This document shows positions 12,514 through 27,791 of a stretch of 64,000 nt of DNA, in pieces. Position 1 is the first letter of the stretch, and each line of letters begins with the position of its first letter. A program made the translations under genes and the position numbers. The notes beneath the pieces are model-generated. The model was not told the DNA's origin. It searched no databases and saw nothing but the letters and a program-made list of their open reading frames with translations. The stretch is from Pseudomonadota bacterium (GTDB lineage Bacteria; Desulfobacterota; Desulfobulbia; Desulfobulbales; SURF-16), in the NCBI GenBank assembly GCA_018816555.1, contig JAHIVT010000041.1, positions 1 through 64,000 on the forward strand, read 5' to 3'.

Positions 12514-13599
12514 TCAGGACGTTTTCTGCCCTGAGATGGCTTTAATAGGAAGCCTGACGGTGAAGGTGGTCCCTTCGTTTACGTTACTTTCAACGGAAAT
12601 TATTCCCTTATGGCTTTGAATCGTTTTCAGTGCAAAGGTGAGTCCAAAGCCGGGGCCATAGGTCTTGGAGGTAAAAAAAGGATCATAGATGTTCTTGAGC
12701 TTATCTTTATCAATACCTTTGCCGGAATCTGCCACCTGGATTTCAAAATAACCATCCGTAACACTGGTGGAGATTTTAAGCTCCCGCTTGTCGCCTACCA
12801 TGGCTTCAATTGAATTTTCTATCAGATTGGAGATGGCCATGGTGATATTTTCCTGGTCTGCATGGATCATGGGGGGATTTTCCATGAACTTCAAGATCAG
12901 TTTAATATGTTTTTTTTCAATCTCATGCTTGTAAATGCTCACGGCATTCATCGTTATCTCATTGAGATCGGATGGCTCGGTGTAGCAAAGCGTAGCCCCT
13001 TTCAGGGCAATAAGCTCGTGCACCATCCTTTCCAGCACCTCAACATTTTTCAGAATGATGTCGATGTATTTGCGATTCTGGCTGCCTTCCGGAAGATTGT
13101 CTCTGAGCCTTCGTCCGAAACCGCCGATGGCCACCAAGGGATTTCTCACCTCGTGGGAAACCTCATCGACAAAATGATCCAGAGCGTCAAATTTTTCCTT
13201 TTCCGCCAGTTTTTTGCTTTCGGTTTTCTGGGACAACAGGGTTCTGACCCGGGCCATGAGCTCCTTGAAATCAAAGGGTTTGGTGATATAATCATCCGCT
13301 CCGATATCAAGACCTTTCACTTTGTCCGGTACCTGGCTTTTGGCGCTGAGCATCAGAATGGGTATCTGCTTGAGTGATTCATCCTGCTTGATTCTCTTAC
13401 ATACCTCGTAGCCGTCTATTTTAGGCATCATGACATCAAGTACGACCAGATCCGGCACATATTCAGAGACCTTTTTCAGTCCCTCTTCACCGTCATAGGC
13501 CTCCGCCGTTTCATATCCCTCGATACGAAATCTTTTCCGCAGAAGTTCAACGGTATCGATGTTGTCGTCAATGATTAAGATTTTAGTCGTATTGGTCAT
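12514..13599 (-). CDS. response regulator-histidine kinase (REC-HisKA-HATPase), cytoplasmic
   Basis: The 361-residue soluble protein begins with a receiver domain (acidic pocket ILIIDDN, phosphoacceptor Asp55 in LVVLDVMMPK, Lys in YITKPFD). It continues with a kinase module: the H-box VSHEVRNPL around His149, the N-box NLIENSIEAM and G-boxes DSGKGID and GPGFGLTFALK. It therefore receives a phosphoryl group at one end and phosphorylates a partner from the other. It is the last gene of the cytochrome/sensor block, 19 bases after the lone receiver. This fits a relay from the large heme-sensor kinase through this protein, but its target is not visible in the window. Confidence 0.93.
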   Translation of the reverse strand: MTNTTKILIIDDNIDTVELLRKRFRIEGYETAEAYDGEEGLKKVSEYVPDLVVLDVMMPKIDGYEVCKRIKQDESLKQIPILMLSAKSQVPDKVKGLDIGADDYITKPFDFKELMARVRTLLSQKTESKKLAEKEKFDALDHFVDEVSHEVRNPLVAIGGFGRRLRDNLPEGSQNRKYIDIILKNVEVLERMVHELIALKGATLCYTEPSDLNEITMNAVSIYKHEIEKKHIKLILKFMENPPMIHADQENITMAISNLIENSIEAMVGDKRELKISTSVTDGYFEIQVADSGKGIDKDKLKNIYDPFFTSKTYGPGFGLTFALKTIQSHKGIISVESNVNEGTTFTVRLPIKAISGQKTS

Positions 13600-13618
13600 G
13601 AAAAAATATAAAAAAAAA

Positions 13619-14011
13619 TTACTGGAGATATCGTTTAATCTGTTCGCTGAATTCTCTGATATTGATCGGTTTGGTTATATACCCTTTACAGCCCACACCC
13701 AATGCCTTTTCACAGTCACCTTTCATGGCATGTGCCGTCAGGGCAATAACCGTTATATCTTTGTAATCCTCCATGTTTTTTAATCTTCTGGTCACCTCGT
13801 ATCCGTCAATTTTCGGCATGGAGATATCCATCAGCACCAGATCGGGTTTTTCGGCCATTATTTTATTGAGTGCATCTTCCCCGTCGTAGGCTTCAAGCAG
13901 ATGGTAGTTCTGTTTACCAAGGATTTTCATGACCAGTTCACGGCTGTCCTGGTTGTCATCAACTACCAGTATTTTCTTTTTATTTCGATTGTCCGGCTGA
14001 TCAGCTTGCAT
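13619..14011 (-). CDS. single-domain response regulator (CheY-like receiver)
   Basis: The 130-residue product has one receiver domain (ILVVDDNQD, phosphoacceptor Asp62 in LVLMDISMPK, Lys in YITKPIN) and no output domain. The start at 14011 is chosen because a TGAGGAAAT ribosome site sits directly before that ATG. A longer reading would need a TTG at 14032. It lies 74 bases after the hybrid kinase and 19 bases before the receiver-kinase. This suggests it shuttles phosphoryl groups within the relay or acts as a phosphate sink. Confidence 0.92.
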   Translation of the reverse strand: MQADQPDNRNKKKILVVDDNQDSRELVMKILGKQNYHLLEAYDGEDALNKIMAEKPDLVLMDISMPKIDGYEVTRRLKNMEDYKDITVIALTAHAMKGDCEKALGVGCKGYITKPINIREFSEQIKRYLQ

Positions 14012-14085
14012 ATATTTCCTCAGAAATTGCAAAAGTTATGATGAACTGCCCCACTGTGAGGGGCAGGCAATAACTTTGCAGGCAT

Positions 14086-17000
14086 TTACATCTTCTTAAT
14101 AGTATTTTTTAAAGTTTCCAACAAGTCATCTTCCGCCAGAATGGCTTTATTGAAGGTGGCCTTGATTCGTCCATTGAGTTCTTTTACTTTTTCCTCGCTC
14201 AGATCACTGTCTGTAATGAGAACGAGGGGAATATTTCTTGCCGATTCATCTGTCTTGATATACTCAATGACGTTTGAGCCGTTCTCATCCGGCTTGATCA
14301 TCAGATTGAGAACAATCAGGTCGGGTTTGCTCTCGTGAATTGCCTGTATTGCTCCCGTGTTATTGGATGCCTTTGTTATCTTATAGCCACCCTCATTGAG
14401 AACGCGGCCCAAGGTATGCAGAGTGCCTGGTTCATTGTCAACGAGCAGGATATTTTTTATGCTTGTCAGTTTTTCCAGATTCTTCAACTTATGCAGCAGT
14501 ATTTTTTTGTCAATCGGTTTGACCATATATTCGGTCGCGCCCAGAGAAAATCCGATTTTCTTTTCATCAACAATGGACAGGATGATAACCGGAATATCCT
14601 GCACAACAGGATCTTTTTTCAATTCCTGCAGGACCTCCCAACCGTCTTTGCCGGGCATCATGATATCAAGGGTAATCGCCGCAGGCTTGATCTCCCTGGC
14701 CTTTTCCACCGCACCCTCACCGGTATAATGGCCCAAGACGTTATAGTCCTCCCCGATATTTTTTCTGATCAGTTCAATAACCTCCGGGTTATCGTCAATA
14801 ACAAGAATTGTTTTTTTGATGCCCCGGTCAACTGCATCACCTTCCAGATCCAAATCATTCATTTTTTGAGCAGCAAATTCGCCGAGCACGAGATTTTCGA
14901 TAATTTCACATGTCTTGCAGTGCTCCGTCTTTTCTGGATATTTAGCCACCTCGATCCCTTTGCAATGAACTCCGCAGATCAGCCAGCAGCGCCTTTCCGA
15001 GTTGCCGTAAGCAGGGCAGCTTGTCTGCCCGCAATGGGCATATTCCCAGCACTTGACCCGTTTGCCGAGATAATAGGGATCCTTAAGAAAGAGATCGACG
15101 GGCTTATCAAAATATTCAGCCAGTTTTTCCGCCATGGCCAGCTCTATGATTGATTCAGTGGACTTTTCCATTACCTTCTTTTGCGCCGGCAGGGTAAAGC
15201 AGAATCTGCTTCCTTTGCCGAAATCGCTATCCACCCAGATAACCCCTTTGTGCAATACCACCAGGCCCCTGGCGATGCTGAGACCAAGTCCGGTACCTTC
15301 ATAAGGTCGACTGGCGGAAACATTGATCTGGGTAAATTTGTCAAAAAGTTTTGCCATATCATCTTTTTTTATGCCGATGCCGCTGTCTTCCACACATATT
15401 TCGATAAACAGGGAGGCTTCACCGGGGGCAATGCCCAGGGTCGAGGGTTTGGCGTGAATGGTGATGCCGCCATGGTCGGTAAATTTGACGGCATTTCCCA
15501 CCAGATTGACAAATATTTGTTTTACTTTATCCTTATCTATGAAGACGGTAGGGAGATCATCGGCGAAATCAAAATGCAGATAGAGACCCTTGGCATCGAG
15601 AACCGGCTGAAAAAAAATGCTGATGGTGTCTCGCATGCTAGTGAAGTCCGTCTCTTGAATGTCGAGTTCTATTTTCCCTGATTCGATTTTAGACATATCA
15701 AGGATGTCGTTGATTAATTGCAGGAGATGCTTGGCGTTATTTTCTACCTTCATCAAGCTTTTTTCCTGTTCTTCGTTTATTTCACCGTCAATCCGGTCCA
15801 GCAGAAGTTGTGTATAACCAATGATGGAATTCATAGGAGTTCTGAGTTCGTGAGACATGTTGGCCAGGAAGGCGGACTTGAGCCTGTCGAGTTCCCGCAG
15901 ATCTCTGATGGCCCGTTCCAGCATCAGGGTTCTTTCCCGCAACATGACGGTCCGATGCGCCACCTCCTGTTCCAGCCCCTTACTCAATGAGGAAATCTTT
16001 TCGTACATTTTTTCCAGATTGCCCAGCATCTGGTTGGTATGACAGGCGATTTTATCCATGACTTCATTGCTGTCATGGTACTCGGCCCGCACCTGCAGAT
16101 TGCCGTCCGAGGCCTGCTTCAGGATGGCGAGCAGATTCTCGGCTCTGAACTCAAGATATTTCCGTTGTTCTTCCTCTCTTTCGGAGATACTCTGGATATA
16201 ACGCAGCCGTTCAGCTTCGAGAACATCACTGATATCCCTGAAAATCTGCACCGCCCCGGTAATATTACCCTGGGCGTCTTTCAGGGCGCTGGCGCTGGCC
16301 ATGACGGGAATAAGAGCTCCTTCCTTGTTTGAGATGATAATTCTGATATCTTCAACCGGTTCACCTGAGACAAGACATTTTTTGATTGGACAGTCGGTGT
16401 CGCAAATATTATCCAGGCAGATATCACTCTTGAATACCTCCCGGCAGGTTAATTTCCCCTCTGTTTCCTGTTTGCTGTATCCGGTTAATCGGGCGCATGA
16501 GCCGTTCATAAAGGTCACAACCAGGTTGGTATCGACGATGACCAGTGGATCGGCTATGGCCTCTTTGAGGCTGTTGGCATATTCAATCTTGTCCTTGATG
16601 CTTTTCACCATGCTGTTGAAGCTGCCGGCCAAGATACCAATGGAGTCCGAGGAATGAACAGGCGCGAATACGGAAAGATCTCCCCTGGCCAGTTCTTCAG
16701 CCTTGGCGGCCAGCTCGGTTATGGGTTTGGTCACCAGTCTGGCCAGCAGGAAATAGATGATGGTAATCAGCAGGCCTATACCGATGAGGCTTGCTATAAT
16801 GGTATGATTCCGTAGGGTGGCGATGGCCAGATAGGTGGCATCAGTGGATTGTCTCGTCAACAGTCCACCGAGAACCTTGCGTGAGTCGCCGTGGCAGTGA
16901 TGGCATTCCTCGTTATTATAAATGCTGTGGATGGTAACCAGATAATTGACGCCGTCCTTCTCCTCTTCAAAATAGCTTATCCGTGGGGGAACGGCGGTTT

Positions 17001-17382
17001 CAAGCAGGGTTCTCAGGGCAACCAGGGTCGCCCGGTTGCCGGTGAAGGTCGATACATCGGCCCCGATGCGGTCTTTATTGGTGGCAAAAACAATGCGCTG
17101 GTTAAAATCGCATATGACGATTTCCGTGTCCTCCAGTTCATCGCCGATATCAAGAAGCTGTTTTTCAACAGAGGGGCTGTCTCCCAACGACATCGTATGT
17201 TTGATGCCCGCATAGGCCAGTGATTTTATGTCTTGGCTATAAGTGGTCATCCTTTCCCTGATATGTTCCCGTTGATTGGTGATACTGAAATAGATGACAC
17301 CGCCCATGACAATGGTGACGCCGATGGTGAGCAGGGTTTCCAGATGAAGGATTTTTTTGATAATTCCATTCAGGATGATCAT
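14086..17382 (-). CDS. large hybrid histidine kinase with periplasmic c-type-heme motif, Cys-rich PAS, two-CW cluster and two receivers
   Basis: The 1098-residue membrane sensor is laid out as follows. TM1 (about 14-36) precedes a periplasmic sensor domain with a c-heme motif CHHCH at 160-164. TM2 (195-215) leads to HAMP (216-270). The PAS domain (about 270-385) contains five cysteines between 313 and 336. The kinase follows with H-box SHELRTP (His511), N-box NLVGNAVKF and G-boxes DSGIGI and GTGLGLS. A cysteine-rich segment at 778-825 resembles the two-CW type (KCWEYAHCG…RRCW). Two receivers close the protein, the first with Asp906 (LDIMMPGKDG). In the second the phosphoacceptor position is Asn1026 (VLNLMIKP), so it is probably a pseudo-receiver. 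The start at 17382 follows a GGCGGAGG site inside the end of the tetraheme gene, one base after its stop. Redox sensing by heme is inferred. Confidence 0.93.
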   Translation of the reverse strand: MIILNGIIKKILHLETLLTIGVTIVMGGVIYFSITNQREHIRERMTTYSQDIKSLAYAGIKHTMSLGDSPSVEKQLLDIGDELEDTEIVICDFNQRIVFATNKDRIGADVSTFTGNRATLVALRTLLETAVPPRISYFEEEKDGVNYLVTIHSIYNNEECHHCHGDSRKVLGGLLTRQSTDATYLAIATLRNHTIIASLIGIGLLITIIYFLLARLVTKPITELAAKAEELARGDLSVFAPVHSSDSIGILAGSFNSMVKSIKDKIEYANSLKEAIADPLVIVDTNLVVTFMNGSCARLTGYSKQETEGKLTCREVFKSDICLDNICDTDCPIKKCLVSGEPVEDIRIIISNKEGALIPVMASASALKDAQGNITGAVQIFRDISDVLEAERLRYIQSISEREEEQRKYLEFRAENLLAILKQASDGNLQVRAEYHDSNEVMDKIACHTNQMLGNLEKMYEKISSLSKGLEQEVAHRTVMLRERTLMLERAIRDLRELDRLKSAFLANMSHELRTPMNSIIGYTQLLLDRIDGEINEEQEKSLMKVENNAKHLLQLINDILDMSKIESGKIELDIQETDFTSMRDTISIFFQPVLDAKGLYLHFDFADDLPTVFIDKDKVKQIFVNLVGNAVKFTDHGGITIHAKPSTLGIAPGEASLFIEICVEDSGIGIKKDDMAKLFDKFTQINVSASRPYEGTGLGLSIARGLVVLHKGVIWVDSDFGKGSRFCFTLPAQKKVMEKSTESIIELAMAEKLAEYFDKPVDLFLKDPYYLGKRVKCWEYAHCGQTSCPAYGNSERRCWLICGVHCKGIEVAKYPEKTEHCKTCEIIENLVLGEFAAQKMNDLDLEGDAVDRGIKKTILVIDDNPEVIELIRKNIGEDYNVLGHYTGEGAVEKAREIKPAAITLDIMMPGKDGWEVLQELKKDPVVQDIPVIILSIVDEKKIGFSLGATEYMVKPIDKKILLHKLKNLEKLTSIKNILLVDNEPGTLHTLGRVLNEGGYKITKASNNTGAIQAIHESKPDLIVLNLMIKPDENGSNVIEYIKTDESARNIPLVLITDSDLSEEKVKELNGRIKATFNKAILAEDDLLETLKNTIKKM

Positions 17383-17383
17383 C

Positions 17384-17887
17384 TCAATGTCCTCCGCCAT
17401 GAATGAGTGGCCTGAATTTGAAGGCCTGAATCATCTCGCTGGTGTGGCACTGATCGCAGGTCTGTATGGTCGGATGGCCAATGATCGATTCAGGCTTTGC
17501 GTCTTCTATGTGAATCGATCCCGGGCCGTGGCAAACCTCACAGCCGGCATTTTTCAAAAGAGGAGTTTTTTCAACGCTGATAAAGCCGCCCGGTTTCCCA
17601 TAGCCTGTAGTGTGACAGGTATAGCATTTCTTTAAATCTTGTTCGTTCAGACCTTTCTGCAGTCTTTCAATGCTTCTATAGGAGTTGCTTTTTTTTGTAT
17701 AGATGGAGAAGTTGGCATATTCCTTCTCGTGGCAGGGCTGGCAGGAGAGGGAACCAACATAAACTGGGAGGGCAGGGAAAGGCTCTTTTGCTGCGAGGCA
17801 TGGCGATACACACACCATGCAGAACATAGATATGATCAGTAATTGTAATGTCGTTTTATGCAGATTAAGTGCGGAGGGGGATTTCAT
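17384..17887 (-). CDS. secreted tetraheme c-type cytochrome
   Basis: The 167-residue product has a signal peptide (hydrophobic stretch about 13-32 ending CLAA). Four CXXCH heme-attachment motifs follow: CQPCH, CYTCH, CEVCH and CDQCH. The pattern GCEVCHGPGSIH and the overall spacing resemble cytochrome c-554-type tetraheme proteins. Heme attachment in the periplasm is family knowledge; the electron partner is inferred. It sits between the 15-heme gene (19 bases upstream) and the heme-sensor kinase, whose start is one base after this stop and whose ribosome site lies inside this gene. Its expression is thus tied tightly to the sensor, and it could be an electron donor or signal partner for it. 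Confidence 0.92.
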   Translation of the reverse strand: MKSPSALNLHKTTLQLLIISMFCMVCVSPCLAAKEPFPALPVYVGSLSCQPCHEKEYANFSIYTKKSNSYRSIERLQKGLNEQDLKKCYTCHTTGYGKPGGFISVEKTPLLKNAGCEVCHGPGSIHIEDAKPESIIGHPTIQTCDQCHTSEMIQAFKFRPLIHGGGH

Positions 17888-17906
17888 GCCCGTTCTCCAT
17901 GCAATC

Positions 17907-19520
17907 TTATCCTTTATCCCAATGGCAGCCGGTACACTGGGTTATCCCAGGCTTTAACCTCAATTTGTTTTTGCGTTGCGAACCTTCGGCCGAAGCAGGG
18001 TATTTGATAACTCCCAGATCGTGTGGATTATGGCAGGTAGCGCAGACCACCTTGCCATGATACAGGGGTAACTCGACCCCGATCCTTTGTACAGAGGTTT
18101 CAAGGGCTTTCAAAATTTTTGCTGAAGGTGTTACCAGGTGACGGCCTCCTGCGGGATGGTTTTCACTGAAGCCCGGATGGCATCCGATACAGTATTCATT
18201 GGGGTCATCAACTATAAATATAACATTTTTCGGCCCGAAAAGGTAGATATCCGGAAGGGATGCATGACATAAAAGGCATGTTTCTTTTCTGATGTGACCA
18301 TGTTCATCAACCTGCAGGTGAGGATTTAAACGACGATAGGTCTCCTGACGATGACAGAGAAAACAGAATTCGTTGCGCGACAACCCGGTTCTGCGCAGGA
18401 AGTTGGGATTTTCCTTGCCCACAGAGTCGATATGCCGGGCGGTTTCCTGCAGGGATGACTGGTGGCAGGTCTCACAGGAGAGTTTCCCGTTCTGCAGAGG
18501 CATGTCCGGAGGTATCTTCACCTGTTTTGAGGGGATAATGCCCACCGGATGAATATCAGCCCTGGCAAACTCTGACTTGTGGCAGCGGTTGCAGAGCTCG
18601 TTGAGATCGCCACTGCCGAGAAGACTCGGATTTCCTTTGGATGGAGCGCCCTTGTGGCAGGAAATGCACATCAAGTTTTTCCAGTGGGGATTGATATTTC
18701 TGGAAACTGCTGCCAGCTTGAGGTATTCATTGGTGATCAGATGGTTTTCTTCCACTTTGCCGTGATGGATATGGCAGCTTAAACAGTACATCTGGCCCTG
18801 CTGCAGGTTGCTTGCGGGATCAAGCAATTCCTGGACAAGGGGATCCGGCAAGGGGTCGAGATCCTTGTAGTGGTTTTTCCTGAGCGACCAGTGGCAGAAG
18901 AAACAGACGGCGTCAACTTCATCCTTGGCCATTTTCCCCTTATTCTTTCTTTTCTCCGGGGTGGCGATATGACAGAAAACGCATGTTGTGGTGTCTGTGG
19001 TATGCGGCGAAATGCCGGCAAAATGTTCCTTATGGCAGATGGAGCACAAGCTGGTGCGGATAGTCTGGTGTGAGGTATTGTTTCCTCTGAGAAGATACGG
19101 GGTAAACTTATCCTGGTGTATGTAATGACAGGTCAGGCAGACAATCTTTCCCTGATATATGCCATTGCCCAGGGGCAGGTTGAAATTATCCAGTCCGGCG
19201 AACTGATTGATCGGCTCTATCCCCAGCGGGTGAAGATTAGCTCCGGCATGGCACATCTCGCAGAGACTGATACTGTCAGCACTGATCAGGCCTTCTGCCG
19301 TTTTGCCGTCTTTATCCTGTAAATGGCATTTGTTGCAGGCCATGCCATGGGGGTTGCCTATGGTCTCAAGAGGAGGAGAGGGGATTGTCAAGCCGTCATT
19401 TGTTCTGTGCAGCCTTCTGTCGGGTGAAATAGTTACAGATTCAGCAGAAATTGCCGTTGGAAGACTTGCGATGAGTGTTGCTGCCAGAAAAAAGAGCGAT
19501 GCGATGCAGAAACGGCCCAT
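17907..19520 (-). CDS. secreted 15-heme c-type cytochrome
   Basis: The 537-residue product has a cleavable signal (ends PTAISA) and 15 CXXCH motifs by direct count, from CNKCH to CTGCH. There is roughly one heme per 36 residues and many extra His residues for bis-His ligation. Pairs such as CEMCH…HPLG…CLTCHYIH and CHPGF…HPAGG…CATCHNPHD match the doubled-CXXCH repeat type found in large respiratory cytochromes. There is no membrane segment beyond the signal, so it is expected to be periplasmic or exported. It starts one base after the 22-heme gene, so the two are surely co-transcribed and probably act as one electron wire. Confidence 0.94.
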   Translation of the reverse strand: MGRFCIASLFFLAATLIASLPTAISAESVTISPDRRLHRTNDGLTIPSPPLETIGNPHGMACNKCHLQDKDGKTAEGLISADSISLCEMCHAGANLHPLGIEPINQFAGLDNFNLPLGNGIYQGKIVCLTCHYIHQDKFTPYLLRGNNTSHQTIRTSLCSICHKEHFAGISPHTTDTTTCVFCHIATPEKRKNKGKMAKDEVDAVCFFCHWSLRKNHYKDLDPLPDPLVQELLDPASNLQQGQMYCLSCHIHHGKVEENHLITNEYLKLAAVSRNINPHWKNLMCISCHKGAPSKGNPSLLGSGDLNELCNRCHKSEFARADIHPVGIIPSKQVKIPPDMPLQNGKLSCETCHQSSLQETARHIDSVGKENPNFLRRTGLSRNEFCFLCHRQETYRRLNPHLQVDEHGHIRKETCLLCHASLPDIYLFGPKNVIFIVDDPNEYCIGCHPGFSENHPAGGRHLVTPSAKILKALETSVQRIGVELPLYHGKVVCATCHNPHDLGVIKYPASAEGSQRKNKLRLKPGITQCTGCHWDKG

Positions 19521-19521
19521 T

Positions 19522-22263
19522 TTATTTTACCCCGTTGTTTTCTTTATCCTCGCCGGCAGGTTGTCTTTGTGTATCAGACTCAACTTGGTCGGCGGTGGGC
19601 ATCGAAATCCCTAAAATACTCTTTTTCTCATTGGCATTATGGTAGAATCTATACAGTAAAAGGGTTTTAATTCCATGGCAAGCATAACACAATTCATTTC
19701 TTGCACCTTTTCTGAGAAAACTGTTAACAACAGTGCCCTCAATGTTTTTCCCTGACCCGGCAGTGTCTTCATTTGCGTCCCAGATATGCGGATCATGACA
19801 GGTGGAACAGGTTATTTCCCCGGAAACCGCCTTTTTACCTTCCTTGGTATATAAAGGAATGGGATCAGGCGACGGGCCGATGGACAGCAGGATATTCCGG
19901 TAAGACTTGTGATAGCCGAAATAGAATTGTTTCGGATGTATGCCGGAGGAAATGACCTTGCCTTTACCCGCACCGTTTTTGGCGTGGCAGCCGTTACAGG
20001 CTTTCTCGATGAAGTCCTGTCCGGTATCATCCAGCGTGTAATTCCACAGCAGGGTTTTCTCAGGAGCATTGTGAACGGCATGGCATGGTGAGCAGACTGA
20101 CTCTTCCTTGGCCATTTTTCCGCTTTTATTCAGCGATGTGGGAGCTGTTACCCGCATGTCATGATCGGTTCCGGTGACAAAGCTTTTGCGCAGGTGGCAT
20201 TTGGCGCATAAAGTCGGTTTTTCCAGATTGGCGCTTCTGAGGAAACTGTTGTCAGCAGTGCCCTCAACGTTGCTGCCCTTCCCCTTCTTGCTGAGTTGGG
20301 AATTCCATCTGTGGGGATCATGGCAGGTATGACACTCCATAACTGAGGTGCCGTCAGACAGTTTCCGCAGGGGCAGTGACAGGTTGTAGGTGTCTTCTAT
20401 TTTGACGTTCACCGGATGGGTGTTCTGTCCCAAGGTCTTTTTATCCGCCGGTCCTTTCTTGACATGGCAATTCAGGCAGAGAGAGGAAGGGGATGTGGGT
20501 TTTGTGTCGAATTTACGCGCCCAGAGGTACGGACCGCTGGCCTGATGCGGCACATGACAGGGTGAACAGACACCTGATTGACCGGCGGTCTGTTTAGCGA
20601 TATTGTTCTCTTTGGGCGCAGTGACGGTGAGGTCGTGATCAGTGCCTTCCACATAATACTGCTCCACATGGCATGAGGCGCAGAGAGAACTGTCCGTGCC
20701 GGAACGCTTCCGCAGAAAACTGGTGAAGGGTGTCCCTTCATCATTAATGCCTTTGCCCTTCTTGCTGCTCTGTGAGTCCCACCTGTGGGGATTATGGCAG
20801 GTATGACACTCCATCACTTCATTTCCATCCGTTTTGGTATAAAGCGGCAGTGTTTTCGGATCCTTCAGCTGATCGGCTTTTTGCATGGCAACGTTGACCG
20901 GGTGGGTGAACCTGCCCACCGTCTTTTTGGCTGCGATGCCTTTGTCGTTATGACAGGTGAGACAGAGTTTGGACGGTGAAGACAATGAAGCGGGATCTTT
21001 TACTTTTCGTGCCCAGAGATACGGACCGGTGGCCTTATGCGGGATATGGCAGGCAGTACAGACACCGGTCTGTTTTATGGTCTGCTTGAGGACATTGATC
21101 TCGTCTTTTGCCGTAATGCTGAGATCGTGATCGGTTTTGTCAACCATATACTCGCCCTTATGGCAGGTGGCGCAAAGGGAATCACGCTGGCCGGCTAGGG
21201 CCTTGGTTCCCGGTTCGTGCTGGTGGACCTTATGGCAGGTGTAACAGTAGACAGTATTGTCGGTCCCGCCGTCAAGTTTCACATGGCTTGCCGGATCAAG
21301 CTTGTATTTGACATAAAGGGGATGGTTGCTTTTCTGCCAGTCGGCAGCGGAGGATCGGTCGGCCTTGTCTGGATGACAAAGCTGGCACAGTGATTCTTTA
21401 TTTTTTACCAGGGCTTTTGTACCCTTTGGAAATTGATGCACCTTGTGACAGGAAAGACATTCGAGGTTGTTATTCGGGCCTAACTGAATCTTTACCCCCC
21501 CGACATTGGGATTTTGTTTAAACTCCACGAGCAGGGGATGGTTGACCTGCTTATTCACCGGGGCATTGGGAGCATCGTATTCACCCGGGTGGCAGAGCGT
21601 GCAGAGGGTTGATTGTTTTTTAACCTCGAAAAGGAGATTTCTTTCCACGCTGCCATGGGCGGTATGGCAGCTTTCACAGATAACAAAATTGGTATCTGTG
21701 GCGGATGGTACAGCACCCACAGCATATAACTCTTTCGGGATAGGCCGCTTGCCCTCATGGGTAGGATGGTTAGTCTTGTCCTGGACCGCCTGATCGACAT
21801 GGCACATCTCGCACATTATGGAATCTTTATTGGAGATACGCAGAAAAATGGTGCGTTCTATACTGGTATCCGTGGTAACGGAGTGCGCGGAGTGACAGGT
21901 GGCGCAGACAACTTTACCATCTTGAGAAAGCGGAAACATTTTCGGAATTTTGACTTTGTCCGAAGGGAGCATATCGGTTTTATGCCTGTCCAGTATCCAT
22001 ACCTTCTTCCGGGAGTCATCAGTTGACCCGTCATGGCAGCTGAAACAGATCATTTCTTCGCCGGCGACATCTTCTTTCTCATATCCCACCAAGGCAGTTC
22101 CATGTCCTTCGAGGAATTGATCAATCCATCTGAAGTGACAGATGGCACATTCACGGGCAGAATTCTGGGTCAGATTTCCGGCTGCCTGTACATTTGGTGC
22201 AGGCGGCAGAAAAAGTGTAACCGCAAGGATCAGGATGAATGAAAAAGGTGATAACCGGCGCAT
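19522..22263 (-). CDS. secreted 22-heme c-type cytochrome with repeated tetraheme modules
   Basis: The 913-residue product has a signal peptide (about 1-27, ending NVQA) and 22 CXXCH motifs by direct count, starting CAICH at 39 and ending CYACH at 859. Residues 215-350 show two diheme repeats of about 72 residues (LCTLCHPGEY…CLSCHKVHQ and LCQLCHPDKA…CYTCHKVHQ). Residues 362-857 consist of three tetraheme modules of about 160 residues with recurring TDHD…A, GPYLWARK, HPVNV and HTCHxPHRW. It has no membrane span after the signal. The likely role is long-range electron transfer across the periplasm or outside the cell. The acidic, heme-free tail after residue 870 is odd. Confidence 0.95.
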   Translation of the reverse strand: MRRLSPFSFILILAVTLFLPPAPNVQAAGNLTQNSARECAICHFRWIDQFLEGHGTALVGYEKEDVAGEEMICFSCHDGSTDDSRKKVWILDRHKTDMLPSDKVKIPKMFPLSQDGKVVCATCHSAHSVTTDTSIERTIFLRISNKDSIMCEMCHVDQAVQDKTNHPTHEGKRPIPKELYAVGAVPSATDTNFVICESCHTAHGSVERNLLFEVKKQSTLCTLCHPGEYDAPNAPVNKQVNHPLLVEFKQNPNVGGVKIQLGPNNNLECLSCHKVHQFPKGTKALVKNKESLCQLCHPDKADRSSAADWQKSNHPLYVKYKLDPASHVKLDGGTDNTVYCYTCHKVHQHEPGTKALAGQRDSLCATCHKGEYMVDKTDHDLSITAKDEINVLKQTIKQTGVCTACHIPHKATGPYLWARKVKDPASLSSPSKLCLTCHNDKGIAAKKTVGRFTHPVNVAMQKADQLKDPKTLPLYTKTDGNEVMECHTCHNPHRWDSQSSKKGKGINDEGTPFTSFLRKRSGTDSSLCASCHVEQYYVEGTDHDLTVTAPKENNIAKQTAGQSGVCSPCHVPHQASGPYLWARKFDTKPTSPSSLCLNCHVKKGPADKKTLGQNTHPVNVKIEDTYNLSLPLRKLSDGTSVMECHTCHDPHRWNSQLSKKGKGSNVEGTADNSFLRSANLEKPTLCAKCHLRKSFVTGTDHDMRVTAPTSLNKSGKMAKEESVCSPCHAVHNAPEKTLLWNYTLDDTGQDFIEKACNGCHAKNGAGKGKVISSGIHPKQFYFGYHKSYRNILLSIGPSPDPIPLYTKEGKKAVSGEITCSTCHDPHIWDANEDTAGSGKNIEGTVVNSFLRKGARNELCYACHGIKTLLLYRFYHNANEKKSILGISMPTADQVESDTQRQPAGEDKENNGVK
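19693..21180 (-). repeat. three tandem ~160-codon tetraheme modules inside the 22-heme gene
   Basis: The modules cover residues 362-525, 526-683 and 684-857 (20689-21180, 20215-20688 and 19693-20214). The heme motifs recur with spacings of 158-164 residues (Cys364, 528 and 686; Cys402, 566 and 724; Cys434, 596 and 756; Cys486 and 644, with Cys819 slightly further out). Modules one and two are the most alike; the third has diverged. This points to growth of the protein by internal duplication. Confidence 0.85.
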
Positions 22264-22268
22264 AATTT

Positions 22269-23318
22269 TTACTGACCCTGTCTTTCCAGAATCAGCACCC
22301 TGTTGTTGAACATTTCAACGACATAAAGACGGTTACCGGAAATAGCCATTCCCACCGGTGTCTTGAATTTGGTAATCTTTCCGTTACTGTCTCCGACGAC
22401 ACCAATAAGCCCTCCTTCCCGTTTGAAAACCTGAACAACTCCTAAATAACTATCTGAGATGAACACCTCGTTTTTTTCGTTTACCACCACACCCTTTGGT
22501 CTGAAAAATTGACCGGGTTCAATACCCCATTCACCTATGAAACGGGCAAACTTACCATTTGATTCAAGAACCTGTACCCGGGTATTGATGGCCTCTACAA
22601 TATAGATCCTGCCCAACCGGTCAATATCAATCAGAAAGGGGAAGCGGAATTCACCAGGATTGCGGCCCATTGTCCCTGTGGACCAGAGCAGTTTGCCGGA
22701 ACGGTTCATTGAAACAACCCGGTGATTATCGTTGTCCACTACAATATACGTATTGTCAGGTCCGAAATTGACATCAGTAGGATCGCTCGGCTTGCCGTTA
22801 ACAGAGGAGGGGACATCAATGTAATGAGGAGTTTTCTCTTCCGCGGCAAAGAGGGCAAGTCGGTGATTTCCCGAATCCGCCACAACCACATCACCCCCAG
22901 GTGAAACATCGATACCAAGGGGCTGTTTGAGAATTCCCGCACCTCCCAGGGTAAATATTTGTTCTCCCTTGGGGGAATATACTCTGACCGTGTCTGCTGT
23001 ACCGTCTAAAATGAAAATCCTGCCGCTCTGGTCAACGGCAACATCACTGGGAAGTTTCATTGAGCCTGAGATCGACAGGACAGGTTGGAATTTAACAATA
23101 TTTGGTGCGCCATCTTGAGCAAAGATGATGGCCGGGAAAAAAACCGATATGATAAGGAGGGGAAATAATAACCAGCACCTTTGGTTGTTTCTGCACTGTC
23201 TTCCTTCACTGCCCTTATTGCCAGCTTCAGCTGATGTACGGGTTAACTGATCCAGATCAGCTGAGCTGGCAATGGGGCAATGCATATCGACAGAATGTTC
23301 TCGCAGGCAAAGGTGCAT
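22269..23318 (-). CDS. NHL-repeat beta-propeller protein, exported
   Basis: The product has about 349 residues. After an unusually long polar leader comes a hydrophobic signal or anchor (WLLFPLLIISVFFPAIIF). A run of six or so NHL-type blades follows, each with patterns such as GxIxIxDxxxxxVxVxxxxG (DQSGRIFILDGTADTVRVY; LGRIYIVEAINTRVQVL; KNEVFISDSYLGVVQVF). NHL propellers are binding scaffolds and have no heme. Similar proteins recur in multiheme-cytochrome clusters, where a structural or docking role is suspected but unproven. The start is uncertain. The longest reading begins with TTG at 23330, and ATG 23318 has a short-spaced AGGA. The gene lies five bases before the 22-heme gene and about 20 after the cytochrome b-c fusion. 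Confidence 0.85.
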   Translation of the reverse strand: MHLCLREHSVDMHCPIASSADLDQLTRTSAEAGNKGSEGRQCRNNQRCWLLFPLLIISVFFPAIIFAQDGAPNIVKFQPVLSISGSMKLPSDVAVDQSGRIFILDGTADTVRVYSPKGEQIFTLGGAGILKQPLGIDVSPGGDVVVADSGNHRLALFAAEEKTPHYIDVPSSVNGKPSDPTDVNFGPDNTYIVVDNDNHRVVSMNRSGKLLWSTGTMGRNPGEFRFPFLIDIDRLGRIYIVEAINTRVQVLESNGKFARFIGEWGIEPGQFFRPKGVVVNEKNEVFISDSYLGVVQVFKREGGLIGVVGDSNGKITKFKTPVGMAISGNRLYVVEMFNNRVLILERQGQ

Positions 23319-23338
23319 GGTCCTAGTCAAATGTGGTC

Positions 23339-24931
23339 TTAGTCAGTGGAACGGTTCTCCATTTTCAGTTCGTTCATTTTCTGCTTTCTCATCAGATCGG
23401 GATCGAACATGGTCGGGAGATAGAACTGCATGTATCTATTGATCATATCAGCAACCTCTGTCCGATAGAGACTCTCGGCACGTTTTGGTGGATAGCCTAC
23501 CCGTGCAAGATCTATATAAGGTTGTTTGCTGTTGTGGCATTCCGTACACTGAACCGGTTTTTTTGCCATGTTCTTATGGATAATTACTTTTGCCTTACCC
23601 TGTTCCTCAGGAGTCAGAATATCTTTCTGAGCAATGTAGGATTTAATAAAGTTGGGATCTTCAGCCTCATCCATGCGGCGAATTTCATTGCCGTTGTTGC
23701 TGTCTGATACAAGTACCGGGATGAGTCTTGCTCCGTAAACGCCGTTACTGCCCTCAATTTTATCGATCTTCTCATCCGTCATGTTGTCAAACCAGACGTA
23801 GTTGAATTTGCCGGAGAAATTTTCCTCACGGTCATGGCACACCTCACAGGCCATGAAATAACTATGCATGTTAAGGAAAGAACGGATATCAGGAGCCTTG
23901 CTGTGCGGTAAGGTGCCATGACAGGTCACACAGAATTGCGGGTTCGCTAGCTTTAAATTCACGGTATCATCTACGTTGTGGAAATGCCTGGTATACTTCG
24001 CCGTATCCCCACTATGGATTAATCTATCAAAGCCGGTGCTTGGTGTTTTGGCCTTGGCTGAATAGGTGGGTGGAAAATAAAGAAGCTTGCCCAGTAAAAA
24101 CATTACGCCCATAAAGAAAAGAATGGAACAATAGGTCATGAATTCGACGAACACTTGTTTGACGGATTTCGGTCCGTGGTGACCATGGTGATCGTGTTCA
24201 TCGACCGGAGCGAGTTTCCCTTCTGCAACCAGGCGGTTGTACATGGCGCCATGTTCGATTTTCAGATGGTGGTTAGACATCTTGCCGTCTATCCAAACCC
24301 TGCTCATGGGGAACTGGCCAGGTTTAAAGTGCACCTGATAAAAGTGCCATACGATGATGGCCATGGTGGCCAGGCAGGCCTCCATGCCGTGAATCATAAT
24401 CGAGAGATCAAGAACGAATTTGCTCCAGTATACTTCCGACCAGAGGAAAATACCGGTCACGGATATGATGATGGTACCCGCTACCAGAGCCAGATATTCA
24501 GCCTTTTCCCTGTAATCGAAACGTTCGAATTCAGGCGGTTCCGGACGCTGACCGAAATAGTATGCCATATTTCCGATGATATCCGTCACGTCTTTTAATG
24601 TGGGGATCATGGCGAATATGAAAGACCGCCCGGCCTTGGTGAAAATACAGTAACGGACATGATCGAGTCCGCCGATTATCATGATTACCCCGGCTATCCT
24701 GTGAACAAGTCCACGATATTCGAATATGGTAGTTCCATATGATCCCAACTTGAGTATCCATGCCTCAGGCATCTTGAGCATGTATCCGGTTATTACCAGG
24801 ATAAAGAAGGTCACAAAGGTTATAAGGTGCTGAAGGCGCTCGGGGCCGTTCAGCCTTACAATTTCCTTGGGGAGGTTGTCGTTGTTATGCATCATCTCAC
24901 CATCTTTGCCAATTATTTTATCGGAGTCCAT
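23339..24931 (-). CDS. cytochrome b (FdnI/HydC-like) fused to a triheme c-type domain
   Basis: The 530-residue product begins with a four-to-five-helix cytochrome b module (about 20-215). This has conserved His residues in RLQHLITF, GLVHRIAG, LDHVRY, IHGMEA and VWHFYQVHF, typical of the diheme b subunit of formate dehydrogenase and NiFe hydrogenase. A further helix (about 260-280) precedes a periplasmic C-terminal part with three heme motifs, CVTCH, CEVCH and CTECH. The same b-plus-c fusion idea is seen in the Geobacter inner-membrane protein CbcL, which takes electrons from menaquinol. I infer the same entry-point role here, feeding the multiheme proteins encoded downstream. An alternative ATG lies 12 codons on. 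Confidence 0.92.
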   Translation of the reverse strand: MDSDKIIGKDGEMMHNNDNLPKEIVRLNGPERLQHLITFVTFFILVITGYMLKMPEAWILKLGSYGTTIFEYRGLVHRIAGVIMIIGGLDHVRYCIFTKAGRSFIFAMIPTLKDVTDIIGNMAYYFGQRPEPPEFERFDYREKAEYLALVAGTIIISVTGIFLWSEVYWSKFVLDLSIMIHGMEACLATMAIIVWHFYQVHFKPGQFPMSRVWIDGKMSNHHLKIEHGAMYNRLVAEGKLAPVDEHDHHGHHGPKSVKQVFVEFMTYCSILFFMGVMFLLGKLLYFPPTYSAKAKTPSTGFDRLIHSGDTAKYTRHFHNVDDTVNLKLANPQFCVTCHGTLPHSKAPDIRSFLNMHSYFMACEVCHDREENFSGKFNYVWFDNMTDEKIDKIEGSNGVYGARLIPVLVSDSNNGNEIRRMDEAEDPNFIKSYIAQKDILTPEEQGKAKVIIHKNMAKKPVQCTECHNSKQPYIDLARVGYPPKRAESLYRTEVADMINRYMQFYLPTMFDPDLMRKQKMNELKMENRSTD

Positions 24932-24964
24932 AGCTGTTATCCCAGATGATTGTTTCAGCTTTTC

Positions 24965-26164
24965 TTAATGAAGCTTACCTTTGCTTTTGTTGATAAGTAT
25001 TCTTATAAAATCAAGCATCTGGTGTGCCATCATTCCTCCAATCACCACGGTGATCAAAAGAGTATATACATATTTTACTATGATGTAGACTTTGCGTTGG
25101 AAAATCTGCTGCTCGTCAAGCTTGGTGATATCCACATCCTCAGACGTGACGGCGCTGAGATCACGGAAGCGCCTTTCCTGTTTCAGACTATCCATTTCGT
25201 TTAAAGTAGCTTCACCCTCGACATAGGCGCTAACCTTTTTCTCAAATCCGCTGCCGGTAGGATGAATTTTACCTGTGGCAAACTGCTCGGTGGCTTTGGG
25301 ATGACATACCTGTGTACCGTTGAGATTGGAACAGGTCGCCTGCAGATTCTGCTTATGAACCGCTGAACCGGGATTGGAGCCCGTTTTCATGGAATGAACC
25401 GTGAAACCGACAGGGGCATGACAGCTGAGGCAATCAGGCATATTCGGGTCGCCATACAAAACACCTTTCCAGTGGAAGGTATCTTTATAGTTGGACGTGG
25501 CAGTAAGCCCATGTCGGGCCATCTTCTTTTCGTCCTTATGGCAATCGAGACAGAGTTTAACGGTCTGTACAGCTGTTTTTGACCGGTGCATCCGGTGGGC
25601 GAAATGCTGGTAGAAGCGATTGGTCCACTCCTTGTTCTCGTGGCAGCCCAGGCAGCGCCGCAGGGCATCTTGTGAAATGCCGGCCTGCATTGTAGTGAGG
25701 TCGCTGACAGGTTGGTAGACAGCATTCACATGGCAGTCGGTGCACTGGGGTAGATCCTCGGTGCATTTTTTGGTCATCTCGGGGGTGTACAGACCATGGA
25801 TGCTTGTATTGAATTCAGCATAAATGCCGCCATGGGAGAATTCTTTGTCGGTGGATGGTTCCTTGAGATGGCACTTGGTGGAGCAATCCACTTTCTTTGC
25901 ATCGGTGTGGGGGATGACATCAAGATTCAGATGGCAGTTCCTGCACAGGACCTTACCATGAACGGAATTGATGTATATGTCCTCGCTGACGTAAAACAGG
26001 CGCGATTTGCCTGTTTGTGTGTCAATCCTGCCCAACCCGGGGTACTTGTGACATACGCTACATGCTTCTTCATCCGCCGCGTAAATGAAGGATGGAGCAT
26101 TCAGCGTTGAAACCATCCAAATCATTAGAAAGAGGCAGACACATCTGCTTAAATGATTTTTCAT
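24965..26164 (-). CDS. membrane-anchored multiheme cytochrome c (six CXXCH plus CX3CH and CX8CH)
   Basis: The 399-residue product starts at ATG 26164, directly behind a GGGAGGG ribosome site; a longer reading from 26203 lacks one. It has a signal peptide (ends FIYAAD). Six standard heme motifs are seen: CSVCH, CRNCH, CTDCH, CLGCH, CLDCH and CLSCH. Two non-standard motifs occur at positions where hemes would be expected, CSTKCH (CX3CH) and CSNLNGTQVCH (CX8CH). A single C-terminal transmembrane helix (about 355-377) ends in a short basic cytoplasmic tail. It is the first gene of the nine-gene block, 33 bases before the cytochrome b-c fusion. It is probably the periplasmic partner of that quinol oxidoreductase. 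Eight hemes are inferred, six are certain by motif. Confidence 0.9.
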   Translation of the reverse strand: MKNHLSRCVCLFLMIWMVSTLNAPSFIYAADEEACSVCHKYPGLGRIDTQTGKSRLFYVSEDIYINSVHGKVLCRNCHLNLDVIPHTDAKKVDCSTKCHLKEPSTDKEFSHGGIYAEFNTSIHGLYTPEMTKKCTEDLPQCTDCHVNAVYQPVSDLTTMQAGISQDALRRCLGCHENKEWTNRFYQHFAHRMHRSKTAVQTVKLCLDCHKDEKKMARHGLTATSNYKDTFHWKGVLYGDPNMPDCLSCHAPVGFTVHSMKTGSNPGSAVHKQNLQATCSNLNGTQVCHPKATEQFATGKIHPTGSGFEKKVSAYVEGEATLNEMDSLKQERRFRDLSAVTSEDVDITKLDEQQIFQRKVYIIVKYVYTLLITVVIGGMMAHQMLDFIRILINKSKGKLH

Positions 26165-26882
26165 TATCCCTCCCTCATCATGTGTTTCTGTTTGTTCAAA
26201 CACCGCTCAATGCATAAAAAAAGTGAATTTCAGGATCACCTCATTAAATGGGGCGGACCCTGGTGTGATTCACTATTCAAAATGAATTTTGCGGTATTTT
26301 TAGAAATTATGAGTTGTCTGTTTTAATAAAAAAAAATCGCCCCAAAAAAAAATAAATTCTCTCTTCTTTCATTCAGAATGAAGAACTTAACTCTCTTTAT
26401 ACTACATGCTCTGCTGAAAATTGAAAGCAGTAATTAACCAAGATTTTTATTATTTTAAAAAAATAGTAATAAAATTGGCTATTCATTTTATAGCAAAAAT
26501 TATAACAGATTCTGTAAAAAAATGAATGCTCAATTTTTGCTCGCGCCAGTATAACTACTTAGCAATAAATTTGCGGTGTGGTAAATTGTCGCAGAAAGCA
26601 GAATCTGATTGTTTTTTGGCGGCAAGAGAGGGTGGTTGAATTGTTTTTTTACCTTGCCTTACATTAGCTTTTTTTTAATTTTTTCACTATCTCAATGAGT
26701 TAAGTTTTTTGTGGTACAGCCAATGATGGGAAGAAAGATGAGGAGTGATCAGTGTCGCGGATTTGCAAATAATTATATTGCTTTTGTTTTGATAACTAAT
26801 TGATTGGGTTGAACATTTGCCGGAAGAGAATTTCTGATCAAAAAATGGAGCAAAGGTGACGAGTTGCAGCAGGCCTGTATCA
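26165..26882 (-). promoter_or_regulatory. AT-rich upstream region of the cytochrome operon
   Basis: These 718 bases are gene-free and strongly AT-rich, with phased A/T runs (for example two A9 tracts at about 26328-26352). They contain the end of the ATPase transcript and must contain the cytochrome-operon promoter. I found no clear -35/-10 or sigma-54 (GG-N10-GC) element. The imperfect inverted repeat GTGAATCAC…GTGAT…ATTCAC (about 26228-26270, read on the minus strand) lies some 70-110 bases before the first start. It is the best candidate for a regulator site. Confidence 0.4.
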
Positions 26883-27791
26883 TTATTTCTGATCAATTGT
26901 TTTGAGTTCGGAGTGGACGGTTGCTTTGAATCCGGCAACCAGGTCCAGTAATTCCGAGGTGATGGTAGACTGCCGTTTTATCCTGTATGCACCCCGTAGT
27001 TCCTCAACATGTTCTTCAATATTTTTTTCCGCATTCTGCAGGGATCTCAGGCGACTTGCCTGCTCACTGGCCAGGGATTCGGCCTGACTGCGGAAAAGAG
27101 TGACGAACAGATACTGGCGGATTAATCCGGAAAAAAGCTGGTCGGCCGGCACCCGGAAACTGGGGAGTGATCTGCCCGGCCATTGCTTTTTCCGCAGAGA
27201 GCGCAGATGGTCATTATCAATTGGAAGTAAAACCTGGTGATCGGGACTGGCCGAAGTTAATTTTTCATATCTGTTAAGGAAGATATCAACCTGGGCTATT
27301 TTGTGTTCTTTAAGCCAGCCTTCCACGCTGAGAAGCACTTGATAGATGCTGGCGTTAATGCCGTTGACGGAACCGGGAACCCAGAACTGTTTGTCTATGA
27401 TAAAACCTCCCGCCTCGAGCCGGGCCGCAATCCGTGCGCCGATGACGATCAGTTTGAGGGATGAGAAATCAGTGACTTTCATACTGATAAGCTGCTGTCT
27501 GACAAAATCGGCCAGGCGTTCATTGAATCTGCCGCATAAACCCTGATCGGAGCCGAAGATGATCACCCCTCTGGTGAATTGGTCCGATACGGCGGCATGC
27601 CGCGGCAATGCCGTTTCCTTGAGTACCGTCTGCAGTCCAAGTTCGATGACTTCGACAAAGGTGTCCAGCGAGGCAAGTGCCCGTTCATACTGACGGATAT
27701 TGACGGCAGACAGGGTCTTCATGCTTTTGACGATACCCTGCACCTTGGTGGTGGTTGTTATTCTTTTGTCCAGGTCCTGTAAGGTCTCCAT
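26883..27791 (-). CDS. atpG: N-type ATPase gamma subunit
   Basis: The gamma subunit is the central rotor shaft that couples ion flow in the membrane ring to catalysis in alpha3beta3. The 302-residue product has the long N-terminal helix (TLQDLDKRITTTTKVQGIVKSMKTLSAVNI) and the C-terminal helix (AEKNIEEHVEELRGAYRIKRQSTITSELLDLVAGF, shortened here in meaning: residues about 255-295) that form the coiled-coil shaft. It is divergent from housekeeping gamma, as expected for the alternate F1F0 class. It is the last gene of the operon, six bases after alpha. No epsilon or delta follows, which distinguishes it from a standard atp operon. Confidence 0.93.
   Translation of the reverse strand: METLQDLDKRITTTTKVQGIVKSMKTLSAVNIRQYERALASLDTFVEVIELGLQTVLKETALPRHAAVSDQFTRGVIIFGSDQGLCGRFNERLADFVRQQLISMKVTDFSSLKLIVIGARIAARLEAGGFIIDKQFWVPGSVNGINASIYQVLLSVEGWLKEHKIAQVDIFLNRYEKLTSASPDHQVLLPIDNDHLRSLRKKQWPGRSLPSFRVPADQLFSGLIRQYLFVTLFRSQAESLASEQASRLRSLQNAEKNIEEHVEELRGAYRIKRQSTITSELLDLVAGFKATVHSELKTIDQK

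Follow-up and report, generated by a model that had tools for sequence, protein, structure and literature searches.

The window, that is, the whole stretch of 64,000 nucleotides analysed here, belongs to a 4.9-Mb assembly of 183 contigs from a subsurface sulfur bacterium, the source genome having a dissimilatory sulfite reductase since dsrA was found in it (585 bits in a profile search, against a cut-off of 393). Between positions 12514 and 26203 the minus strand holds nine open reading frames, A to I (Table 1), all of them confirmed by an ORF check of the window. The start of gene A is the ATG at 26164, its longest frame beginning with a GTG at 26203. Pfam backs every gene call, with b561, NHL, Paired_CXXCH/cytochrome c7, C554, HAMP-PAS-HisKA-HATPase-REC-REC, REC and REC-HisKA-HATPase matches.

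Table 1. Features of the nine-gene run and of its upstream border, in window positions
Feature	Positions	Strand	Description
A	24965..26164	-	7-8-heme c cytochrome (6 CXXCH, CX3CH, CX8CH); signal peptide; C-terminal TM anchor
B	23339..24931	-	b561-type membrane cytochrome with a three-heme c domain fused at its C-terminus; probably the quinone-reactive subunit
C	22269..23330	-	NHL beta-propeller, exported
D	19522..22263	-	Doubled-CXXCH cytochrome, 22 hemes (18-24 in relatives)
E	17907..19520	-	Doubled-CXXCH cytochrome, 15 hemes (10-11 in several Desulfobulbales relatives)
F	17384..17887	-	c554-family tetraheme cytochrome, conserved C-terminus F-x-F/Y-x-P-L-I-H-G-G-x-H; predicted dedicated partner of the sensor
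G	14086..17400	-	Hybrid histidine kinase: TM, heme-c Cache, TM, HAMP, PAS, HisKA, HATPase, two-CW-like Cys cluster, REC, degenerate REC
G, sensor part	16723..17346	-	Periplasmic heme-c Cache domain (CHHCH) and its two TM helices
G, Cys-rich stretch	14821..15063		Two-CW-like, between kinase and receivers
H	13619..14032	-	Lone receiver domain
I	12514..13599	-	Receiver fused to a cytoplasmic histidine kinase
F1 gamma gene	26883..27791		F1 gamma subunit of an alternate (N-type) F1F0 ATPase

A preliminary description of the locus, made from the sequence alone, had counted nine same-strand genes with about 52 heme sites, and both figures are borne out. CXXCH motifs number 6 in A, 3 in B, 22 in D, 15 in E, 4 in F and 1 in G, and the run has 52 c-heme sites, or 53 counting the odd site. 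Gene A carries extra sites, namely a CX3CH kept in all relatives and a CXnCH in which n is 8 in the window and 4 in several relatives. For A, formerly labelled octaheme-like, the reading as an octaheme reductase had to be dropped: it shows no match to the octaheme tetrathionate reductase family (TIGR04315, at E 0.01) and has no PDB relative. Intergenic gaps amount to 33 (A-B), 8 (B-C), 5 (C-D), 1 (D-E), 19 (E-F), 53 (G-H, or 74 from the ATG of H) and 19 bases (H-I), while F and G overlap by 17. The tight spacing first described therefore stands, its largest gap of 74 bases applying only if H begins at that ATG; the range is otherwise -17 to 53. In a promoter and terminator scan of the run, counts were modestly higher than in shuffles, and no clear internal boundary appeared. 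The F1 gamma gene (TIGR03323, 282.7 bits, barely above cut-off) lies, with the genes above it, directly upstream of the cluster, and neighbours of similar size occur in two genomes of the same genus, G001 and G004.

Two modules and their distribution

The nine-gene order is common to three other genomes of the window's genus (G001, G004 and G005, where B is 97, 87 and 65% identical, respectively), H being present in all three and detected by tblastn in G004. Conservation over such distances argues that the order is not due to chance; a search for it in relatives had been suggested by the preliminary description, and in these three it is neither absent nor scrambled.

Outside the genus, the two halves of the run occur separately. 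In three genomes from another family (G032, G042 and G051), and at many named loci, genes A-B-C-D-E follow one another with no F-I beside them. Conversely, F-G-H-I are found without A in a different genus of the same family (G011), and on their own in G173 (locus L225). The genomes of five further loci (L047, L048, L053, L064 and L108) have both modules, on different contigs or far apart. At L217, L218 and L219, F and a heme-c chemoreceptor lie inside che operons with CheA, CheY, CheW, CheR and CheD-like genes (named by size, sequence start and order), and nine of ten F-paired sensors scanned are chemoreceptors, the tenth being a kinase. The run thus consists of two independently conserved modules, A-E and F-I, rather than the single package formerly proposed, and among the genomes sampled they are joined only in the window's genus, F-G(-H-I) and A-E being found apart elsewhere.

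Module A-E, a predicted quinone-to-periplasm electron module, is of scattered occurrence, A being found in 25 of 395 genomes of a phylum sample. About 66 named loci, in Desulfobacterota, Nitrospirota and others, carry it; in-order b, triheme, NHL and D homologs accompany A at 60, 59, 50 and 45 of the 66, respectively, counts that are lowered by contig ends and strict thresholds. Records with A include Desulfocapsa, Desulfosediminicola flagellatus, Desulforhopalus, Desulfurivibrio AMeS2, Desulfobacterales, Thermodesulfovibrionia, a Thiodiazotropha and a Sumerlaeota MAG, and a search of viral contigs returned no relatives. A second, more distant form of the module has the b and triheme parts mostly as separate genes and a D of 18-24 hemes, often with a 7-8-heme relative of E upstream of A.

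Known electron-transfer systems of Geobacter resemble this module in part. The operons of CbcBA and Cbc5 (cbcEDCBA) likewise encode a b-type cytochrome together with a multiheme c cytochrome and other c cytochromes, acting on menaquinol (PMC11434368, PMC12307469), a likeness drawn from their descriptions; A-E differs from them by the triheme domain that its b subunit carries or has as a separate partner, by the NHL propeller and by an 18-24-heme cytochrome. Among 70 loci with A, a pattern search of limited reach met no record titled Geobacter or Desulfuromonas. CbcL, like B, is a single protein with a membrane b domain and periplasmic c-hemes, yet it has six TM helices and nine c-hemes (PMC9129911), as compared with about five and three in B. 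Hence, the idea of a quinone-side b/c module with large multiheme wires is retained, while its assignment to the CbcL type is not.

No beta-barrel was recognised among A-I from translations and Pfam, in agreement with the preliminary description, which had placed any outer-membrane conduit elsewhere. Porin-cytochrome conduits such as MtrAB, Pcc and OetABI would represent the next step outward, and genes of this kind do occur on another contig of the source genome (C25), where a 9-heme DmsE/MtrA-family lipoprotein (TIGR03508, 254 bits, cut-off 192) is encoded beside a 663-aa GSU2204/MtrB-like protein. The match of the latter to PF11854 (26.9 bits, above cut-off in one search) is weak, for hmmscan listed nothing. 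Besides the MtrA-type lipoprotein and the MtrB/GSU2204-like barrel, that run (L174, positions 6977-13339 of C25) encodes two exported proteins and a histidine kinase with heme c, so that this genome has a conduit accompanied by a heme-c kinase at two places.

In Desulfurivibrio (L041, at about 2,446,500-2,459,400 of the D. alkaliphilus genome, and L104), A-E come directly after genes for two lipoproteins, one with 9 hemes and one with 7, between which a heme-less, exported, barrel-like protein of 440 aa is encoded; no match to this putative porin was found in the source genome. Long barrel-like proteins are also encoded near A-E in Desulfosediminicola and in Desulfocapsaceae or Desulfobulbaceae MAGs (L057, L086 and L099), calls that are a reading from sequence because no Pfam family matched. 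A further cluster, present twice in the source genome (L175 and L177, contigs C22 and C35), encodes cytochromes of 26 and 16 hemes together with an NHL propeller and a PpiC-type isomerase, and resembles another cytochrome export system; the neighbours of the 26-heme genes, considered as porins, turned out to be these isomerases.

The heme-c sensor and its tetraheme partner

The sensor part of G finds the Geobacter sensor domains GSU0935 (3b42, E 7.5e-13) and GSU0582 (3b47, E 2.4e-8) in profile searches. Its AF2 model (pLDDT 89) has the same two among its Foldseek matches (E 5e-6 and 3e-4), with strands 133-143 and 158-167 flanking the CHHCH at 148-152, i.e. a Cache/PAS-like fold with a CXXCH insertion. 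Like those proteins (class 40H; sCache_heme, DUF3365/Tll0287), it places the CXXCH between two strands, has flanking TM helices and offers a candidate Met in the N-terminal helix; it differs from them in being mounted on a hybrid histidine kinase and preceded by a dedicated tetraheme cytochrome. Scores against PF21563 and PF11845 remain below the cut-offs (21.0 of 27 and 15.1 of 24.1 bits), although F-paired relatives at L198, L202, L203 and L206 pass PF21563. I read the G sensor, on the evidence of its predicted fold, as a divergent relative of sCache_heme outside the curated family. The domain family is common, occurring in 130 of 297 genomes.

Met60 of GSU0935 is an axial heme ligand, and in both GSU0582 and GSU0935 Met ligation is reported to switch with the redox state of the heme (PMC8396549). 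A Met in the helix motif IKHPMAxGD of most sensor sequences, including that of the window (HTM), would correspond to Met60, judging from the profile alignment. Leu replaces it in 5 of 28 sequences, the F-paired sensors of L202, L203, L205, L207 and L208, which provide a natural contrast between redox and gas sensing.

Concerning the signalling parts, the second receiver of G has an Asn at the position of the phospho-accepting Asp, and the Cys-rich stretch (28.5 bits, cut-off 35) might bind metal. The preliminary description had spoken of a heme-sensing phosphorelay. A heme-c sensor is indeed in the run, the wording being inapt because this sensor contains heme, and kinases and receivers are present; the relay is incomplete, as Pfam detects neither an HPt nor a DNA-binding domain among G, H and I.

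Heme-c kinases adjoin A-E-type modules also outside the genus, at seven loci. In the kinases of L061, L063, L090, L062 and L109, the CXXCH lies in a periplasmic stretch of another kind, rich in helices; L061 and L063 also have NtrC-type regulators. Those of L076 and L096 have a G-like domain, again with NtrC-type regulators. The A-E loci L038 and L058 use heme-less kinases with LuxR-type regulators, a point against the explanation favoured below.

Gene F matches the cytochrome c554 family (PF13435, 68 bits, cut-off 20.8); its AF2 model (pLDDT 55) is unusable for fold comparison. A search with the G sensor part revealed a four-heme gene just upstream of the sensor in most of the top 30 loci. 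These upstream genes align as a single family that ends in F-x-F/Y-x-P-x-x-x-G/A/S-G-x-H and whose members from outside the genus share 39-59% identity with F. In the reverse search of 297 genomes with an F profile, 36 matches scored 176-246 bits before a drop to 122 and below, and each of the 36 is followed immediately, on its own strand, by a G-type heme-c Cache domain in a chemoreceptor or a histidine kinase. As paired examples had gone into the profile, pairing is fairly tested by the matches outside it, which are more than a dozen of the 36. Five of five further cases from other named genomes are paired as well, the two genes usually overlapping or lying a few bases apart. Two apparent exceptions are duplicates: L244, scored as unpaired by the script, coincides with L209, at which the sensor can be seen, and L250, which did not fit the tail pattern, coincides with L211.

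By comparison, none of 12 F relatives lacking the GGxH tail (84-100 bits) is paired. These tetraheme proteins (L275-L284, L291 and L297), mostly from Nitrospirota, have a different tail, such as KTHEHFPLKYEH, and no adjoining sensor. F, taken for part of the conduit in the preliminary description, thus belongs, judging from this pairing, to the sensor as its dedicated partner. No description of the F-G pair or of the NHL module was found in the open-access papers searched, nor one of an F-G pair joined to an electron-export run.

Proposed electron flow and redox sensing

I favour, at a probability of about 0.55, an explanation in which A-E form an electron conduit and F-I a redox sensor, F bridging the periplasmic pool and the sensor heme. 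Within the presumably co-transcribed run, A-E would let the quinone pool exchange electrons with the periplasm, B through two b-hemes (expected from its family) and three c-hemes, A as its membrane-anchored multiheme partner, and D and E as large wires put together with the help of the propeller C. The path would be completed by a conduit across the outer membrane whose genes lie elsewhere. A-E would thereby feed the periplasmic cytochrome pool, between which and the Cache c-heme of G the periplasmic tetraheme F would shuttle electrons, equilibrating the sensor heme with the pool. Oxidation or reduction of this heme may alter its distal ligation, the conserved Met of the N-terminal helix being the likely ligand, and the change could switch the kinase of G and, via H and I, an output encoded outside the run; the F-paired sensors with Leu at this place argue against the ligand switch. 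That the sensor reads the redox state of the conduit, as first suggested, is plausible: lying in the same run, it probably reports the conduit's electron load. The F-G signal as such is not conduit-specific, since the pair is mostly found with chemoreceptors and no A-E beside it.

A different role for the sensor is the main rival to this explanation, because a signalling-type sCache_heme protein binds nitric oxide tightly and releases it slowly (PMC12889525), and GSU0582 and GSU0935 bind both NO and CO (PMC8396549). G could accordingly be an NO sensor, with F, a member of the c554 family, supplying electrons or handling reactive nitrogen, and with the conduit neighbourhood reflecting nitrogen-oxide stress or acceptors. 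Yet GSU0582 and GSU0935 are also reported to show a redox-linked change of coordination and distinct midpoint potentials (PMC8396549), the different heme-c kinases gained by other A-E modules (L061-type) fit redox sensing better, and the run has no NO-linked genes; NO sensing is the less likely reading, but a serious one. Still less credit is due to the nine genes being one unit, in which F is part of the wire and G reads the conduit directly. Same strand, tight gaps and an order kept in four genomes of the genus speak for it; already weakened, it is made very unlikely by the fact that F invariably goes with a heme-c sensor, whether cytochrome modules are present or not, and that A-E occur without F-I outside the genus.

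The joining of A-E and F-I may be incidental within one genus, the sensor controlling something else, for instance motility or a distant regulon. F-G elsewhere reside mostly in chemoreceptors and che operons, H and I have no DNA-binding domains and G011 has F-G-H-I without A-E; against this, the order persists down to 65% identity of B with only 19 bases between E and F, and heme-c kinases adjoin the module in other lineages too, which leaves an incidental joining rather unlikely. A-E might also run inward, from a partner or a mineral to the quinone pool, the sensor then reporting electron supply instead of the acceptor. The dsrA gene of the source genome would suit such a route, and reverse operation has been proposed for CbcBA of Seep-SRB2 (PMC10553843). 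Nothing in the sequence sets the direction, and D. alkaliphilus, when reducing ferrihydrite, raises the expression of 13 of its 46 multiheme cytochrome genes (PMC12545173), a set that may include genes of A-E; inward flow is a possibility that I hold to be less likely than not.

Taken singly, the ingredients of the favoured explanation (heme-c Cache receptors, c554-type cytochromes, b/c quinone modules) belong to known kinds. The F-G pair may, at slightly below even odds, represent a widespread two-protein redox receptor of bacteria. A dedicated tetraheme cytochrome, docking by its GGxH tail, would connect a Cache receptor that bears a c-heme with the electron pool of the periplasm, and the kinases and chemoreceptors concerned would respond to electron load and not to a small molecule; here, the receptor would be built into the run of the very conduit it reads.

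The pair bears on how cells sense the state of extracellular acceptors. Heme-c receptors such as GSU0582 and GSU0935 were already known, and the F gene, never found away from a heme-c receptor in the sample, is an immediate candidate for the missing link that sets their redox state; two small proteins suffice to test it. Module A-E, for its part, is a further putative complex between quinones and periplasm that recurs in several phyla, with an NHL propeller and wires of very large size, and occurs also in Desulfurivibrio, a genus for which iron-oxide respiration on sulfide has been demonstrated (PMC12545173). The F-G sensor, in turn, suggests how cells may read the electrical load on their cytochrome wires.
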